Below, piece after piece: positions 2,385 through 50,800 of a stretch of 64,000 nucleotides of DNA. This DNA comes from Gymnothorax reevesii (Eukaryota > Chordata > Actinopteri > Anguilliformes > Muraenidae). Position numbers and translations under genes: made by a program. Numbering within the stretch: position 1 is the stretch's first letter; the number at the start of each line of letters is the position of its first letter. The notes beneath the pieces are model-generated. The model saw only the letters and a program-made list of their open reading frames with translations. It had not been told where the DNA came from and ran no database searches. The stretch lies in assembly GCA_029721435.1 (NCBI GenBank), contig CM056583.1, positions 76,325,120-76,389,119 of the forward strand, given 5' to 3'.

Positions 2385-3600
2385 TGATATGGAATCAGGT
2401 AGACACCAGATGCGGGGAGATGGGAATGAGGATTTTATTAAACAAAAAACAAAACAGGCACGAGGGCCAACGAAAAACTTGGCCCAAAGGGTTGCAAAAG
2501 ACAACTAAGGTACGCGACACAGTTTCCCCGCTCTAAATAGCAAAAATGGCAAGAACAAAAAAACCACTGGAAACTCCAGGTAGAAATTCAAGAACGAAAA
2601 TAAACAACGAGACTAGGGCTATATACACAGGGACTATGTACAAAACTTGGAACCATGAACGAGGACTTGAAAGCATGAACATGAGTGACAAAACTTGCGA
2701 ACATGAGTGACAAAACTTGCGAACATGAGCGACAAAACTTGCAAACATGAGCGACAAAACTTGCAAACATGAGCGACAAAACTTGCAAACATGAGCGACA
2801 AAACTTGCAAACATGAGCGACAAAACTTGCAAACATGAGCGACAAAACTTGCGAACATGAGTGACAAAACTTGACTATGAAACAAGACTTGAGCAACAAA
2901 ACTTGAGACACTGCCTGCCAGCCAACTTCCACCGCATCCAGATAAAGGCTTAGAAATCAGAACATGAGGGGCAACACCTGGAGAAAGAGAAACAAGAGGC
3001 ATGGCAAGATCAAGACATGGACAGAGATTGGATGACATGACCTGCTCATTAAGAGAATGACCGTGCTCAGCTTAAGTACCAATTAAGTATGCAGGTTGAA
3101 AGCAGCATGAATGTTAAGAACAGAAAAGCACAGCAAGACTTGAAATAGTAAAGCAGGAATCATGACAACAAACTCCCTGTCTAAATTAGTAATATTAGTA
3201 ATGTGCCTATCTAATGAATTACACCACCCAGTGAGTGTTAGTAAATGTTAGTAACTTAAAAACAGTTAATTGTCAATTAAGCTTAGACAGCTCCGAATCA
3301 GCACAGCACAGAAGGAAGGGTGAAATACCAAAGCCAACCATAGCTAAGAAATGTGCAACAACGAAGGCACGGGGCGGAACGCCGACAAGCGGTGGAGTGG
3401 CTTGGCAGACCTGGCCAAAACAAAAACATGGAAAAGTAAAAACATGGACAAGGATGAATTATGAAATGCTTGATCCAGATCTAAGAAACTGTTAAAACTG
3501 TGACATGAACTATGACTAAGACTATGGACTATGGAACATGAAACTGTTAAAACCAGAAATGCTGTCCTGGCCAAAGGCCAGGACCCCAGAACACAACAAA
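2385..3600. repeat. Purine-rich dispersed-repeat-like region containing a minisatellite
   Basis: The region is rich in short GA/CA-containing phrases such as 'aggaatgag', 'caaaacaggca' and 'tggccaaaggccagga'. Comparable text occurs at about 10936-11569, 31255-31860 and 62095-62680. The last part carries the palindrome 'gtcctggccaaaggccagga' near 3563. No coding capacity is visible. It looks like a non-autonomous element, but no terminal repeats could be fixed by eye, so the class is unknown. Confidence 0.35.
2679..2875. repeat. 22-bp minisatellite, 9 copies
   Basis: The unit 'acatgagcgacaaaacttgca' plus one base recurs at exactly 22-bp spacing, starting at 2679, 2701, 2723, 2745, 2767, 2789, 2811, 2833 and 2855. 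Only a few substitutions are seen (gagc/gagt, gca/gcg). Because 22 is not a multiple of 3, all three minus-strand frames stay open and give false repetitive ORFs. Confidence 0.9.
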
Positions 3601-6813: not shown

Positions 6814-7067
6814 CATGCAGGTGTAGTAATTTTTCATGAGCTTGCAGTGACTGCTGTAGCCGTAGGTGGAGAGCTCCGGGAGTCGGCAGCCCTGGTCATC
6901 CTAACCTGGTCTGGCTCAGCAGAACCATACCCAGGAGCCAATGCGCGGCCGTTTACCCACACTTGGTGTTTGGCAGCCATGGTGTCACGGGTCAAATGAA
7001 TTGTCTTACACTTAGAAAGGTAGGAATCAGTTACGAAACAGAGGCCAAGGAAGTAAATGAATAAAAG
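6814..7067 (+). other. loxhd1: Putative 5' UTR / proximal promoter of loxhd1
   Basis: This stretch lies directly upstream of the start codon. An in-frame TAA at 7062-7064, two codons before the ATG, shows that the reading frame cannot extend further upstream in this exon. The transcription start is not visible from sequence. Confidence 0.4.
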
Positions 7068-7830
7068 ATGGCCCAGAAGAAGAAAAAAACCAAGAGAACC
7101 GAGGAAACTGAGGAGGGTGAGGATGACGTTGAGGAGAAGGTGCACAGGCTGAAGGAAAAGAGCGAGTCGACCGCAAACGGAGAAGTCACCAGGGAGAGGA
7201 AGAGGAAGACCAGAAGCTCAGCGGGCCCTGAGGCTGAGATCCCAGAATCTGGGAGGAAAAAAAGCAGGAGAAAAAAAGAAACTGATGGAAGAGTAAAGGA
7301 CAGAAAAAGGGAGGAACAACAAGATGATCAGGCGGAACGGGAACAAGGGGAGGGCGGTCATGTGATCGAACAGGTGGTGGAGGAACTAGAGGAACAGAAT
7401 AACAATGACACCAAGGCCAAAAATAAGAAAAAGAAAGAGAAGCCTCCAGAAGAAGAACTAACTGAACTTACCGAAGAGGACAAGAAGAAGAAAAGAAGGA
7501 AGAAGCCGTCAACTGAGGAAGATCAAGAGGAAGACATGGGCTCCAAAGACAAGAAGTCCAAGGATGGGGGCAAGAAACACAAGAAGAAGCCGGCTGACGA
7601 AGAGGAACTCATCCCAGAGGAACAGGAAGAAGAGGATGAACCAAAGAAGAAGAAGAAGGCCAAGAAGTCGAAGAAGGGATCAACTGATAGTGATGAGGAC
7701 AAGAAGAAGGGTAAAGGCAAGAAGTCCAAGTCCAAGCAGGTGAATTATGCAGAGATTTATGAGAACGAGCTGCTGAACTACCACACAGATTCTTCAGATG
7801 GATATGAGGATGAGTATTACAAGAAAAAAG
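7068..7830 (+). CDS. loxhd1: loxhd1 exon 1: start codon and long Lys/Glu-rich N-terminus
   Basis: The exon encodes residues 1-254 and ends in phase 1 at donor AAG|GTAATA. It starts [10 protein letters not shown], passes through about 200 residues of mixed Lys/Glu/Asp runs (many KKK and EEE), and ends with [13 protein letters not shown], an acidic stretch and EYYKKK. The last part matches the short N-terminus of mammalian LOXHD1 (basic start, then 'YEAELLNY'). The charged middle is extra. An in-frame stop two codons upstream fixes the start. No signal peptide or membrane segment is seen; the segment looks disordered and could hold nuclear-type basic signals. Confidence 0.9.
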
Positions 7831-41800: not shown

Positions 41801-44800
41801 GGCATGTTCTTCATTGCCTTAGTTATTACCATCAGCCAATGCTGTATTGAACAAAATTTCATGATGCGACACTGCCAGAGCAGTCAGTGTTTCGATTGGC
41901 GGACATCAGGTGGACAGCTCGAATTTGCGCTCAAAGTTGAGCTTGTTGCTGTGATGGGAAATATGCGAGTTACTTCACAACCAGACATGGCTTGTATTTT
42001 TACGATTTCCGCAAATTTGCATGGATATCAAGGACAGACTGAGTGAAGTTGAGCATTTTTAAAGGCTAGAGTGACTGGGCCTTCAGTCAGAACTGACACA
42101 CCTGAATCAGAGGTCACGAGGGTCACTGATGCATCACAGCTATAGCCAAATGTGATAGCCCAGCTGTATGTACTTCAACATATCTGTACACATTGTTCAA
42201 TTAATTTTTTTTACAGCCATGTCAACGACATACACCCTGAGAATCAAGACTGGTGAAAAGAAATACGCTGGTACAGATGCCAATGTTTTCGCCATCTTGT
42301 ATGGTACCAAGGATGACACAGGTAACACTCTTTGAGCTGTCCTTTCTGTATTCGGATCTGTTACCTTTCACTTGAGCCTGAACACTTGCCATTTCATTAT
42401 ATCTGAAGTCATGTTAGCAATAGATTTCAGTGCTTGCAATATAATAAAACCATGTGATGGTAGGATTGAATATGATCACCTGAAAATGTCGAGTAATTTT
42501 AAAGTGTAGTGTGTATGTATATTATATTGAAAATGTAATCACATGAACTGCATTTTCAAATGTTTCCTGTACTAGAACTATCCTCAGCAGTACACAATGC
42601 ATGTGGGTGCTTTTGTGATTCGGTTCCGTTCACTCTGAGTATCACTGCAGGAATAGTAAACCTCAAGGCTTCTAAGACCCACAAGAACAAATTTGAGCAG
42701 GGGATGATCGATGAGTTCACTGTGGAGGCTGTGGATATCGGTGTTCTGAAGAGACTGCGCATTGGTCATGATAACTCAGGTAAGGTGCACATAGGAAAGT
42801 GACCTGCCGTAAGGGGATCTTCGCGGCTCTTTCACAGCTCAGTGATGCACTGTTTGCTTCAAGAAACAAAACTCAATTTTACTTATGTTTAGCTGGGAAG
42901 GCTACTGGCAGATATTCTGTGACAATGTTGGTACACCTTTGTGTTATTCCTGTAATTCATTAATACAGGTATATGCACCTTGGACATGACACTGGATTTA
43001 TCTATTTACAAAGACCTGTTGGTGTTAAATTGTTTATTCCATCTGGCTACACGAGAAGATTTGAGCTTTGTGTTCTTCGTCTGTCGGCCTCAGGTGGTTC
43101 AGCGGGCTGGTTTGTGGACTGGGTAGAAATCGACGCGCCCTCTGTGGGTCGAAAGCTGCGCTTCCCCTGTGGCCGCTGGTTAGATAAATCTGAGGACGAC
43201 GGTGCAATAGTGAGAGACCTTTACCCCGCCGACCTGCAGACTGAAGCATATGTCCCATGTAAGACCCTTCCCTGATCTTTCACCCTAATACCAAACCCAA
43301 ACCATAGGGCAATCTTAAACTGGCAAAGCCAGTCCACATATTTTAATGGAAAGTTACTTGACTTGGCTTTTTAATAATAATAATAATAATAATACATTTT
43401 ATTCAAAAGGCGCCTTTCAAAACACTCAAGGACACCGAACATGACACAGAATTAAGAACAAACAGGGATTAAAAGGAAAACACAAAATAAAATAAAAATA
43501 ATGATTAAATTACAATAGCAGCAATAGAAAACAACCAAAATGATAAATAAAGAAAACAATGATCCATAATATATTACTAATTAAACAGAGTAAGCAAGTC
43601 TAAAAAGGTGGGTTTTGAGCCGAGATTTGAATAAGGATAGAGAATCGGAATCACGGATGAATAGTGGGAGAAAGTTCCAAAGACGAGGAGCTGCACGGGA
43701 GAAGGCTCTGGACCCCATGGTAACTAAACGGGCGGGAGGTGTGATGAGAAGCATGGACGAGGAGGAGCGAAGAGAACGGTAGGGTGTGTAGATGCAGGAG
43801 ATCAGAGGTATAAGGAGGTGCTAAGTTGTGGAGGGCTTTGAAGGTGAGGAGGAGAATCTTGAAATCAATACGGAATTTGATGGGGAGCCAGTGAAGTTGT
43901 TGCAGAACGGGTGTGATATGGTCAGTAGGAGCGATTCTAGTGATTATCCGGGCAGCTGCATTCTGGGAAAGTTGAAGTTTCTGAGTGACCCTTTGAGGGA
44001 GATCGGAGAGGATGGAGTTACAATAGTCTAAACGGGAGGTGAAAAGTGCATTGACAAGGATGGCAGTGCTGGTGGGAGTGAGCGACGGACGGAGACGATT
44101 AATGTTTCGCAGATGAAAGCATGCAGACCTAGTAATGTTATTGACCTGTGATTCAAAAGATAGAGTGCAGTCGAGGACGACACCCGAGGACGACACCCAG
44201 ACTCTTGACTTGGGAGGAAGGAGAAACTGTAGAGTTGTGAATGTAAAGCTGTGAGATTTATCTAGAGTGGACTTGGTGCCAACAAGGAGAAAATCAGTTT
44301 TAGCAGAGTTTAATTTGAGGAAGTTTTGACTAAACCAGGATTTGATTTCATAAAGACAGTCAGAAAGGGAAGATGGTAGAGGGGTGGAGTTGGGCTTGGT
44401 GGAGAGGTAGAGCTGGGTGTCATCCGTATAGCAATGAAAATGTATACCAAATTTCCTAAAAATGTGACCAAGTGGGAGGAGATAGATGATGAAGAGGAGG
44501 GGACCAAGAACAGAACCCTGAGGTACACCGGTCGTGACAGGGGAGAGCTGTGAGTTGAGTTGAGTTTGAGTTGAACAAACTGATGTCTGTCGGAGAGATA
44601 AGATCTGAACCAAGTGACTGACGTGCCAGTGAAACCAATAGAAGATAATCTGTCAAGGAGAATGTGATGAGAGATGGTATCAAATGCTGCCCTGAGGTCG
44701 AGAAGGATTAATAATGACAGGAGTTCAGAGTCTGAGGCGAGTGTCTTAGTGTCTGTTGTCACTTAATGGAGTCCTAAGCAGGCCTACCAAAGAAAATGGC

Positions 44801-47800
44801 CAAGCTGTAACAAAGGTTTGTCAGATGTCTACCTTTTTCAAAGAACCAGCAACACACAATCGAAAACTCAGTTGGTTCATGTCTTGGTTTGTTACAGGCC
44901 ATCTGATTTTATGAGTCTGGTTCTGGTGAAAATGTATTGATTTCAAAGTGTTGTGGTGCAAAGTTTTGCGGGAATGTGGCGTGTTTTCGATTTTGTGTTG
45001 CTGGTTATTTGAAAAAGGTAGACGTCTGACAACCTTTTGTTACAGCTTGGCTGTTTTCTTTGTTAGGCCTGCTAAGGTCACCGAAGAGCATGCTTGTCAT
45101 ATTCATATGTTCTCACAGCTTTGAAAGAGGTATGTACTGATGGTATTGTTTGTAAATGTATGTGATATTTTTTGCTTTTATTTTTACTGTATATGTATCT
45201 TCAGTTTACAGTGAGGCACCTAAATGAAAATGTTGTATTGTTCAAACATTCTGGGGAAAAAGTATCCAGAATAACCGACCAATTTGTTTATTCGTCAGAG
45301 AAGTACTGTAATGTTTCCAGATATCAGTATTCATCATGACATTACCTGTTAGCCTCTGTAATCACTCCCATATAACTAAGCTGTATTTGCACTCTGAGGG
45401 AATCACTGGGCTGTACTTACCTCATACTTTTTTCTATCTTGGATGCAAAAATTGGAGGTCATTTGAGTAGGCTTGGAGCACTAAGCTAAACTGCTCTTCA
45501 GAGAGACATCAATATTTAATTGACTAACTCTTACTCATGAGTGGAAAGCAATAGTGTAAGCTCTCCTGTAGGCAGACTGGTATATCAATAACATTATTTT
45601 CTTGGATTGAACACACCAATAAGAACATAACAATGGCGAATGTATTATTTTCTCATTACACATTGAAATATTTTCCCAAAAAAATTCTATTTTGCCTTTT
45701 TAAAATATGAAATGTGGATTGATTAAGATATTTTATGAATTTCAGTTGTGCCTTATGAGATTAAAACATTTACGAGTGACGTCTTTGGAGCGGGCACGGA
45801 CGCGGACGTGTGTATCGTTCTGTACGGCCGGGATGGAGTGTGCACCCAGCAGAAGTCTCTGTGCGTCAACAAGAGGGAGAGGCTCATGTACTTCGAGCGA
45901 GGGGCAGAGGACATGTTCATTGTGGAGGTGAGTACCTGTCCGCATGTGGGCAGTTCAGATGTTTACCGTATAATAAACGCCTGGGGAAAAAAGTTAAGCA
46001 CCACCAAATTAAAATTTTTATTTTTTTTTTGAAAATTGGCAAGTCCTGTTCCTTAACTCAAAGGTTTTAGCATGCATTCCACAAGTATTTCATTCAAAAG
46101 GATTTGTCATGAACTATGCATAATTGTGCGTGCTGAATGTTAACAGTTGGGTGGCACTTCTGAAAACTAAGTGTCAGATATTGATGATGTCGCTTCCGAT
46201 TTCAGACTTCAGGGCACAGTTTTCGGTAAACACGGGACTCCTTGCCGTCTTTACAGGATAGTGGGCCCATGCTTTAAACAGCATTAAATGTATTGAAAAC
46301 GTACCCTTTGAATGCTAACAAGGAGTGAAGTTAAGATCAAATTCTTGATCACTGTTTTTGTATGCACGGAAAGGTATGTCCGAACCATATTTCCAAGAAT
46401 TGAACAATTGTTAGTTGATGCAAATAATTTCGGTTTTAAGTGAGTGGAACTTGTTTTCAGAATTGGGAGGAGCTTAACTTTTGTTCAGTGTATTTTGTTT
46501 TATGTTTGATTAATAATCGGTCTGTACCTATGAAATTTTGCTTGACAATTTTGTCCAACTATTTATACAGAGTGCACCTCATAACTTATTAGCTCTGGCT
46601 GTATGTACTTGTGGTAAGTTTTATCGACTGCGCTCAGCAATTCTTTTATCCACCTTTTTAATGCCTACGAGAGAAGATGGCACTTAAAGTAGGATAGAAG
46701 TTTAAAGAAATTTTATTTATTATTTTAGGAGTAAAAAGTTTTTTATTGTTATTGAAAGACCCATTGTCATGGAAAATACCATTATAAGAGCAAAGCTGAT
46801 GGGTATATACTAGCACTGATGTTCTTCAGCTGGAGTTCGTAGGTGATGTGATTGAGAAGCTGATGGATGTTTATGAACATCAGTGTTCTTACTGTCTACA
46901 GCTGGAGTTCGTAGGTGATGTGATTGAGAGGCTGAAGGATATATATGAACATCAGTGTTCTTACTGTCTACAGCTGGAGTTCGTAGGTGATGTGATTGAG
47001 AAGCTGAAGGATATATATGAACATCAGTGTTCTTACTGTCTACAGCTGGAGGACGTAGGTGATGTGATTGAGAAGCTGAAGGATATATATGAACATCAGT
47101 GTTCTTACTGTCTACAGCTGGAGGACGTAGGTGATGTGATTGAGAAGCTGAAGGATATATATGAACATCAGTGTTCTTACTGTCCTCAGCTGGAGGACGT
47201 AGGTGATGTGATTGAGAAGCTGACGGATATATATGAACATCAGTGTTCTTACTGTCTACAGCTGGAGGACGTAGGTGATGTGATTGAGAGACTGAAGGAT
47301 ATATATGAACATTTGCGTTCTTTCCTTCTGCAGCTGGAGGACGTGGGCGATGTGATTGAGAAGATCCGAATCGGGCATGACAACCGCGGCGTGAATCCTG
47401 GGTGGCATCTGGACAGGGTTGAGATCAGGAGACTCCTGAGAAAGGGAAAGGTACCATATTCCCTGGGCTCTGAATGTTGTGCCAAAAATGTACTGTGCTA
47501 TGGAAATAACTGTCAAATGTTGAGCTGATATTTTAGCTCATTATTGGACTGATGTGTTCCTGCCAGAATATTTCTCGCTTATTATCAAATTGAAGATAGA
47601 TATTCTGTAATTTATTGTTCATGGAATTGAAACACCAGCTGTCGCTTATGATTTGTAATTACAAAGTACAGTGCCTCAGTTTATTATAATGAGCAATTTG
47701 TATGTTAATCTCATGAAAGGAAACATGGAATTTACCTTATCGTGTAGAGGAAGCAAGTCTTCAAACAGCAGACTAGCGCCTTAGTGTGTACTCGGGCAGT

Positions 47801-50800
47801 AATAATGTTTAAATAACCTCTGGTAGAGCACTGACTTAAATTCATAATTGAATCATTATCTGGTATTAAATTCATACTAAGTCCACATTCTTGAGCTGGT
47901 TGCATTCAGCAGTGACCCCAATTTCGAACCGCAAGAAAATGCCAAATTAGGTGTTCAGCAGGAATTTGTGCTGTACTGGGATCAACCACAAGGTGGCTCT
48001 CCGCACCAGAGTTGAAATCCTGTCGTGTGAGTGATTGGAATTCTGCAGGCCTGGCGTCTGTGCCTGCTGGGGGTGGCAGGGAATTAGGTGTCATCTGCTA
48101 TTTAATTGAAAGGGTTCAGAGACCACCATCTTCCCCTGTGAGCGCTGGCTGGCCAAGTCAGAGGATGATGGCGAGACGGTGAGGGAGCTGGTGCCTTCTG
48201 ACATCATTCAGGAGAAGCTGCTGAGAGACGGCACGCTCAAGCTCACCGAGACCGAGGTTGAGGATGCTTTAGAGAGTATGTACCCCTCCCCCGCCACCCA
48301 AAAAACTCCTGCAGCAGTAGCACTAATAAAGAAATGCACCACAGGAACCTACTTGCTCACTAGTGCACTCAGACAGCTTCTGTGATGCAACAGAACCTTT
48401 GAACACCAGGTCTGATTTCTCCTACCCCCTCCCATTAAGTAGCATCGATCATTTACGCTTGGCTTGATTGTAAAATTATGACTTTAAAAACCTATTCATG
48501 CTTATATAATACTTGAGTAAGAAAAACATTTCCCGCAGCAGGGGTATATTCCCGCACAGCAAAAATCGCAGTGTTATCTGAACTCCAGTGGTGTTCATTT
48601 GAGACCAGTTGGTCTCATATAAACTCTACTGGAGTTCAGTTAACACTGGGACGTTTGCTGTGCGAGAATATGAGAATAGTGCTCAATGTCTAATTATGAT
48701 TACAGTCCAGCAAGAGCTCTTTCAAAGATAAGTGATTTTTTCTTGTCTTACTCTGTGGCTTTGCCTCGGAGGAAAGATGGAGTCTTTTGAACAAAAATGA
48801 ATCACTTTCTTAAATGCCAGAAAAAAATAATTTGCTTTATATCTAGAAATGTTTACATGCAGGTACATAAATATATGTATACACGATGAATATCAGCTCA
48901 AAGAGCACACTTTCTGTTTTCGTTTGAGGGTATTTGCACCTGGAGTGGGTCAGTGGTGTAGTAATTACTGTACTTTTTTATGAATGGTCTCCTCCTTTTT
49001 AAGGAATTAAAGTCATTGGACTTTTCAGCTGTGACATGAATTGTGTGTGTGTTATTCACTCACTATTCAATCTGGAAGAATGTTGATAAATGTCCAGAGT
49101 TAATATTAAATGTGCCATATGCATTTGAAATTGTTGCTGTTAGCTCTTATTATGAAGTCTGAAAAGTTGTAAATAACAGTAATGAAAAATTACTCTTGAC
49201 CAGTGACTGCTCACTGAGTTTCCCATTTTCAAAAGCAAAAGGTTTTATGTGCTTTTTGAACATTTATGTACACACTCCATTCTCCCGATTGCTGGCTGTC
49301 GGAGTTACTTGCAGCTGCACTTCCATTTTCAATGCTGGGTCGTTCTTCAATTTTCTGATGAAGATGGTTATGTTTGATCGTCGAAGACCTAAGAAAATGG
49401 CTTAGGTTAAAAAAAACTGAAACTCCTCCATACATTAAAGATGAAATTTAACGTATCAAGCCAATTTGATTTTTTCATCTAAAATCCATTGTGTTGGCTT
49501 ATGGATTGAATTATTTTTCTTTTTCTTTTTGGTGGAATATGCCATTCTTGTGCCCGTCTCTCCCTCAGTGCACACCTACAAAGTGTCAGTGATGACTGGG
49601 GATGTGTACGGTGCGGGCACTGATGCCAACGTGTACCTCACCATCTACGGAAACCTGGGCGACACTGGGGAACGCAAGCTTAGCAAGTCGGAGACCAACA
49701 GCAACAAGTTTGAGAGGGGATCGGTAAGAGGACTGACTCTGGGCCTTCCGTTGAGCACATGCTCAGCTTTTTACTGGGGTCACTCTAAAGGGCACACATA
49801 CCTCCTACTCCCTTCTCCTGCTTGTCAAGCAGTTCCTGAAATTTCCTTTTTGGCAATTTAGCCTGGTGACATGTATATTAGCATGGTGTCGCTGCATTTG
49901 GAGGAAAGCACTGCGATCCACTGTGCAATATGCAGGGTGCTTACTCAGTTGGTTTGGGAAGCTACAGTAGGCTTGTCTATAACCACATTAGGAGGGTATA
50001 AGTGAATGAAGGTATATTATTCTTAATGTTTCATGCTTAACCACATGTAGGGTAATGTCTCAAAGAAATGTGTTTGTATTTCTGACAGCCCAGACTCTGT
50101 AAACCCAGCCCAACTCTCAGGCATTCAGTCAGATGTCAGAGGAAGAACCAGTGTGCTAACAGCTTGAGTACCTCCTGGCATTTGTATTGAATTGAGTTAC
50201 AGAGTAAATGTCAAAACTAATGAAGGGAGGAAGCTCTTCAACCCTAAGCAGTTTGTGCTTTCAGCTGGGGTGACCATGCCTTCATCTACTGTGGAAAGGC
50301 TTATTATCTCCTATCACAGGGTGGATGGGGAGATAGGAATGAGTGCAGTCCCTCCGCGTGTCTGTTTGTCCTGTTTTTTCCTGAGGCGGAGGTTCTAAAG
50401 CATTCGGTGTTTCTTAACGAAATTTAACATATGGATACATCGTATTGTGTCGATGTACCTTTTCATACTTCAGTCTGTCATTCTGTCTTTCCCTCCGCCG
50501 CGTTTCGTTTCCAGGCTGCATATCAGCCATCCCATGGTGAGGGATCTGAGTGATTCTCGCTTGTTTTAAGATGCTGTGCTTTCGTCATGCGTATCTCTTT
50601 TGTGACGCTCGTATCCCAGAAAGATTTTCCTCCTTTGTTGCTCAGCTTTGATGCCATACTCACTGATGTAATACAGAACTCTGTCAAATATTTCATTTGA
50701 GGTATTGTCACTGCTTTGGGCAATGTTAAAACTTGTGCTGAACTCTGACTGTTACACATGACATTTGTTTTCGTCAGCAGACGCTAACATTTTTCTCCCA

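Follow-up and report, generated by a model that had tools for sequence, protein, structure and literature searches.

LOXHD1 and the boundary between intron 26 and exon 27

Nearly all of LOXHD1 appears to lie between positions 7065 and 62000 of the window, by which we mean the whole 64,000-nt stretch of Gymnothorax reevesii DNA analyzed here. A hand-made pattern located 10 first-strand motifs of the gene's PLAT series, from 15138 to 58240, and the mouse PLAT1 primer peptide fit best to YENELLNY at 7758, within a lysine-rich frame at the N-terminal end. Minus-strand reading frames at 43651-44762, between LOXHD1 exons, presumably resemble a LINE reverse transcriptase. The part of the gene that concerns us runs from exon 26 to exon 28:

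45746..45927, plus strand: LOXHD1 exon 26, first half of a PLAT domain, ending in FIVE, phase 0; acceptor at 45745, donor GAG/GTGAGT
45928..47333, plus strand: intron 26, 1406 nt if the terminal acceptor is used, as its splice signals suggest; holds the whole array
47334..47450, plus strand: exon 27, 117 nt, 39 codons, phase 0 at both ends; donor AAG/GTACCA
48113..48275, plus strand: exon 28, as read from the sequence; acceptor GAAAG/GG, donor AGA/GTATGT

Exon 26 matched the Pfam PLAT family (E=6.5e-5, 24.1 bits, cut-off 23), and exon 27 alone reached 16.5 bits, under that cut-off. The exon 26 donor scored 11.5 bits with our general 5' matrix which, like the general 3' matrix used below, is approximate. 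Intron 26 is in phase 0, as an earlier sequence-only reading of this DNA had proposed, given that FIVE ends exon 26 at 45927 immediately before GTGAGT and that eight related proteins join the two exons directly. Intron 27 is 662 nt long, so that both introns flanking exon 27 exceed 250 nt. With this general matrix the real exon 27 donor (window 47334-47451) is weak, at 3.4 bits, and a donor-like TAG/GTGATG found in each of the seven repeat units described below scores higher, at 5.7 bits.

LOXHD1 is described as necessary for hair-cell mechanotransduction in mice, and the samba allele as I1342N in PLAT10 (PMC8051682). The sequence-only reading had placed samba near the PLAT domain that contains exon 27, a link that our comparisons left unconfirmed. 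The mouse PLAT10 primer peptide KSENRTNK fit best at window position 49685, in the PLAT domain after that of exon 27, although this is a weak fit with a small margin (26 points versus 22 for the second best) and PLAT numbering may differ between counts. Neither the samba primer peptide nor the VEIW around the mutated codon could be placed convincingly in any part of the window, including exon 27, and we gave up a placement of samba at the VEI of exon 27.

A 72-bp array that repeats the splice acceptor

Immediately upstream of exon 27, direct reading identified seven exact 72-bp units spanning 46830-47333, with exon 27 starting at 47334. Tandem Repeats Finder independently reported a single array at 46823-47363 (period 72, 7.5 copies, 94% matches, no indels, score 907), and thus the coordinates and period given by the sequence-only reading were right. 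A second minisatellite in the window (2678-2873; period 22, 8.9 copies, 97% matches) lies upstream of the apparent LOXHD1 start. The parts of the 72-bp array are:

46796..46829, plus strand: probable diverged, shortened intron-tail copy; GTTCTTCAG/CTGGAG, most upstream acceptor, 5.5 bits, nearest upstream AG at 16 nt
46830..46901, plus strand: unit 1, a 24-residue block
46902..46973, plus strand: unit 2, a 24-residue block
46974..47045, plus strand: unit 3, a 24-residue block
47046..47117, plus strand: unit 4, a 24-residue block, identical to the array consensus
47118..47189, plus strand: unit 5, with acceptor GTCCTCAG in place of GTCTACAG
47190..47261, plus strand: unit 6, carrying CTGACGG
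47262..47333, plus strand: unit 7, with an array-like head except for GAGAGA and a tail with the presumed authentic polypyrimidine tract

Each unit consists of 30 nt that nearly copy the head of exon 27, followed by 42 nt of intron tail closing in AG, and so the duplicated segment spans the splice site itself, just as had been claimed. The real exon at 47334 supplies the eighth copy of the head, with 2 of 30 positions unlike the unit consensus. An AG closes all seven units and another precedes unit 1, giving eight in-frame acceptors in the array region, and frame 0 is free of stops in every unit, also as claimed. The CSYC cysteine pair ascribed to the blocks in general is confined to units 1-6; in unit 7 the reading is LRSFLLQ. 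We take the CTGACGG of unit 6 to be a yUnAy branch-point-like word, with branch points judged by eye.

The units are not equally alike. Any two of units 1-6 share 65-71 of their 72 positions; unit 7 shares 58-63 with them. Seven of the 9 changes that separate unit 7 from the consensus fall in its last 21 nt, and within its tail the first 21 nt carry none (Fisher p 0.009). These tail changes include the loss of the upstream CAG and the replacement of three purines by pyrimidines. At the other end of the array, 46796-46829 is probably an extra, shortened copy of the tail, for which the evidence is moderate: 15 of 2000 random AG-ended 42-mers from the window matched the tail of unit 1 at least as well.

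Tandem arrays are often mis-sized in assemblies, and the copy number, or even the array as a whole, could be a product of misassembly. There is a precedent in amphioxus, where the draft of one haplotype of the BflGb6 repeat is reported as apparently aberrantly assembled (PMC3087553). However, the units here bear different private changes, unlike simple read stutter, the period is exact, and the ends of the array fit the gene. We therefore regard an artifact as highly improbable.

On the minus strand, window 46810-47424 holds one open frame of 204 codons, which follows from a period that is a multiple of 3. RNA folding of 46758-47450 gave no case for a special structure (z -1.62; 2 of 20 shuffles folded as well). 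None of the 25 Pfam families listed for the peptide of array plus exon reached its own cut-off, and we took the non-PLAT matches as noise from a helix-like repeat. AlphaFold2 run without an alignment rendered the array peptide as helices, with a mean pLDDT of 43.8 that makes the model unusable.

Acceptor strength and the open reading frame

An array of in-frame acceptors raises the potential that several of the eight are used, yielding isoforms in which 0 to 7 extra 24-residue blocks separate two strands of a PLAT domain, with a copy number that depends on the individual. All eight are phase 0 AG sites with no stop downstream, and we compared their strength with that of 19 other LOXHD1 acceptors. 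With the general matrix, the terminal acceptor scored 11.6 bits, above all 19 others used (range 3.2-11.1 bits), in agreement with the sequence-only reading, which had credited it with the best pyrimidine tract and considered it probably the main site. The six acceptors at 46901-47261 scored 7.2 bits, well inside that range (11 of the 19 higher, 8 no higher), and so that reading's view of the others as plausible minor sites also held when all eight were scored. The acceptor at 46829, with its 5.5 bits, was exceeded by 14 of the 19.

A matrix built from the window itself separated the sites less clearly. By this measure the terminal acceptor scored 8.9 bits, with 7 of the 19 higher (8th best of 20), and the upstream array acceptors came close to it, at 6.6-6.7 bits for the six at 46901-47261 (10 of 19 higher) and 7.5 bits for 46829 (8 of 19 higher). 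The 19 acceptors behind this matrix were hand-chosen from 37 scanned stretches; sites dropped as unclear include 24356, 32516, 33148, 42575, 43093, 51885, 52169, 53444, 60096, and 61752, and the exon 28 acceptor (48112) is absent because it fell below the listing threshold. As a result, our acceptor yardstick is biased upward.

The terminal acceptor also has the longest AG-free stretch in the array, its nearest upstream AG lying 36 nt away, compared with 16-18 nt for the other array acceptors. This argument is soft, since among the 19 LOXHD1 acceptors the nearest upstream AG lies 14 to 108 nt away (median 27) and 5 of these genuine sites have one within 14-20 nt. Taken together, the upstream acceptors are not weaker than many of the LOXHD1 acceptors in use, and their use at a low level is plausible. 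The simplest reading of the differences within the array is that the tract of unit 7 is the authentic one, under selection, and that the others may have drifted before they were multiplied.

Position in the intron also bears on whether several acceptors are used. PMC9225289, whose introduction gives the proximity rule of Reed and Maniatis, reports that when human 3' sites separated by 20 nt or more compete, the upstream one is favored overall, which speaks for use of the upstream array sites. The same source states that this preference is significantly reduced, though not reversed, when both flanking introns exceed 250 nt.

The sequence-only reading had treated the matching phase of the acceptors as a sign of a functional ladder, and this part of its argument fared poorly. 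One unit length in three is divisible by 3 by chance alone, and the 42-nt tail is open in the acceptor's frame at 10 of the 19 other LOXHD1 acceptors. Among the units we counted 17 distinct changes which, each taken alone against the consensus, comprise 12 nonsynonymous, 4 synonymous, and 1 stop, the last masked by an adjacent change in unit 7. The neutral expectation at kappa 2 is 71/24/5% nonsynonymous/synonymous/stop. Because the split is neutral, we rejected a coding-constraint reading of the blocks, and, with the little statistical power that 17 changes afford, the blocks appear to behave as non-coding DNA. Given this pattern and the open tails of other introns, the matching phases say little for a coding role.

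The content of the blocks also counts against their use in protein. Units 1-3 read LEF where 59 of the 59 relatives examined have D or N. In a low-confidence PLAT model of the related protein P0125 (5 sequences, mean pLDDT 43.1), the extra residues would enter within a predicted strand or at its end. Weighing these points against the strength and phase of the acceptors, we consider it unlikely that the array works as a set of alternative acceptors.

The boundary in related proteins

The sequence-only reading had proposed a comparison with related fish genomes, and we looked for the array in predicted proteins. Our relatives were 163 predicted proteins from two overlapping homology searches, namely the best 120 of 236 matches in one and 62 from a second that scored only the 7994 candidates sharing most words. 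These proteins are partly without names, and there are perhaps several per species. The head of exon 27 followed by the next strand was found in 59 of the 163 listed proteins. Eight of these join the end of exon 26 (FIVE, FVLE, or FVVE) directly to the exon 27 head, among them proteins of three birds, a snake, and the fish Coryphaenoides.

The other 51 frames enter exon 27 otherwise, mostly through the intron tail, and 20 of them belong to a possibly distant LDN type. None of the 51 contains a second exon 27 head, despite at least 24 residues before the head in 39 and at least 48 in 27 (fewer than 24 in 12), in a comparison that would miss arrays with stops, arrays out of frame, and arrays in proteins outside 0.55-1.75x the query length. 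In twelve of the 51 (P0001 and P0003-P0013), a single frame takes in exon 26, all of an intron 26 that is just 23-29 codons long, compared with 1406 nt in the window, and exon 27; these are retained-intron frames, probably picked because they are open.

Words from the blocks were likewise found in none of the 163 listed proteins, and units 3-5 as a query matched no protein at E up to 0.001 among 4181 candidates, and both results count against translated blocks. As far as predicted proteins can show, the array thus appears not to be ancestral to the gene. The exon 27 peptide itself is identical to that of Coryphaenoides P0125 at 39 of 39 residues and matches the LOXHD1 proteins of the three birds at 30-31 of 39 (29-31 of 39 when the snake is included). 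A predicted protein of Goodea atripinnis, P0020, joins exon 26 (...FIVE) to exon 28 (GSETTIFPC) without exon 27, possibly owing to a gap in annotation or assembly.

A probable mirage minisatellite outside amphioxus

Repeats of this kind have been described in amphioxus, where the name mirage, taken from work on Adh3, denotes the tandem duplication of an intron-exon boundary (PMC3087553). Examples given are Adh3, with units of 10-72 bp, the globins BflGb6 and BflGb9, and troponin C (PMC3087553, PMC3902484); PMC3902484, which cites the troponin C case, adds similar repeats in PGBD5. The BflGb6 mirage is reported with 6 and 3 units in two haplotypes, its units being 81-100% identical and its boundary units escaping homogenization (PMC3087553).

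The LOXHD1 array resembles that of BflGb6. In both, the 3' end of an intron and the 5' part of the following exon are duplicated in tandem with AG signals present, and in both the inner units are homogenized and the boundary unit, here unit 7, is set apart. Repeats that span an intron-exon boundary, splice signals kept in many units, and concerted evolution that leaves out the boundary unit are all found here, the last as read from one haplotype of one species. In contrast to the amphioxus cases, the array lies in a vertebrate gene, its 72-bp unit is open in frame, it is known here from the genomic sequence of one haplotype, and most of its upstream acceptors score near the middle of those of their own gene. 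Our search of open-access titles and abstract openings found neither a splice-site minisatellite in LOXHD1 nor a vertebrate mirage, a result that does not prove their absence. We regard the array as a mirage case outside amphioxus, a rare though known kind of repeat in a new place.

A minisatellite that multiplies a splice site does not have to be silent. Turri et al. in 1995 reportedly described an IFI6 minisatellite that supplies several splice donors. According to PMC4526556, the repeat units of IFI6 (6-16, G1P3) serve as donors and allow three mRNA species, which favors the use of several acceptors here as well, and the IFI6 minisatellite also appears in the reference list of PMC2572611. 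As in IFI6, the LOXHD1 minisatellite sits on a splice site and multiplies it; unlike in IFI6, the sites are acceptors rather than donors, and they are known from sequence, whereas the IFI6 units are reported to be used. The amphioxus mirages point the other way, as RT-PCR is said to suggest that they do not interfere with regular splicing, although the same authors allow that mirage signals could act as cryptic splice sites (PMC3087553).

The array also recalls the intron-gain model of Rogers, in which a segment holding splice signals is duplicated, except that here an existing boundary is duplicated with no new intron shown. It could in this sense be the seed of a new exon-intron structure, a fate that PMC3087553 proposes for amphioxus globins. 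Two third-position differences from the real exon create the donor-like TAG/GTGATG that outscores the exon's own donor. However, splicing of a unit from its acceptor to this donor would yield a micro-exon of 13 nt and shift the frame, the donor-like word lacks a G at +5, and there is no sign of use. We consider such recruitment extremely improbable.

We think it probable that the array is a mirage minisatellite that is specific to its lineage and is mostly spliced out as part of intron 26. Its exact anatomy, the neutral changes among units, the ranking of acceptor scores, and the single copy in the relatives seen all lead to this reading. It is further favored by the amphioxus mirages, for which undisturbed splicing is reported or suggested (PMC3087553, PMC3902484), and by flanking introns that both belong to the length class in which the human upstream preference is reduced (PMC9225289). 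Against it count the upstream acceptors, which are not weak and which the window's own matrix barely separates from the terminal site, as well as a human upstream preference that is reduced and not reversed in that class, and the cryptic use of mirage signals that PMC3087553 allows.

If the array is a mostly silent mirage, a single tandem duplication that took in the tail of intron 26 and the opening 30 nt of exon 27 would have placed a second copy of this 3' boundary upstream. The polypyrimidine tract and exon head of the upstream copy would then have drifted, with an AG arising 18 nt ahead of the acceptor, and the drifted copy may have been multiplied by slippage or unequal exchange and afterward homogenized. 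The last tail, adjoining the real exon, would have stayed under selection; we infer that it is ancestral rather than secondarily improved. Splicing would mainly join exon 26 to 47334, with the array leaving in the intron. It is quite unlikely that the array is partly read in hair cells, adding a variable number of 24-residue blocks to one PLAT domain with a copy number that varies between individuals. If it were, repeat-length polymorphism would directly alter protein length via splicing.

As a mirage minisatellite, the array would carry a phenomenon described for amphioxus genes into a ray-finned fish, and into a gene of hearing. It offers a natural setting for testing how the spliceosome selects among eight almost identical acceptors that share spacing and frame, and how boundaries, once duplicated, stay silent or turn into new coding sequence.
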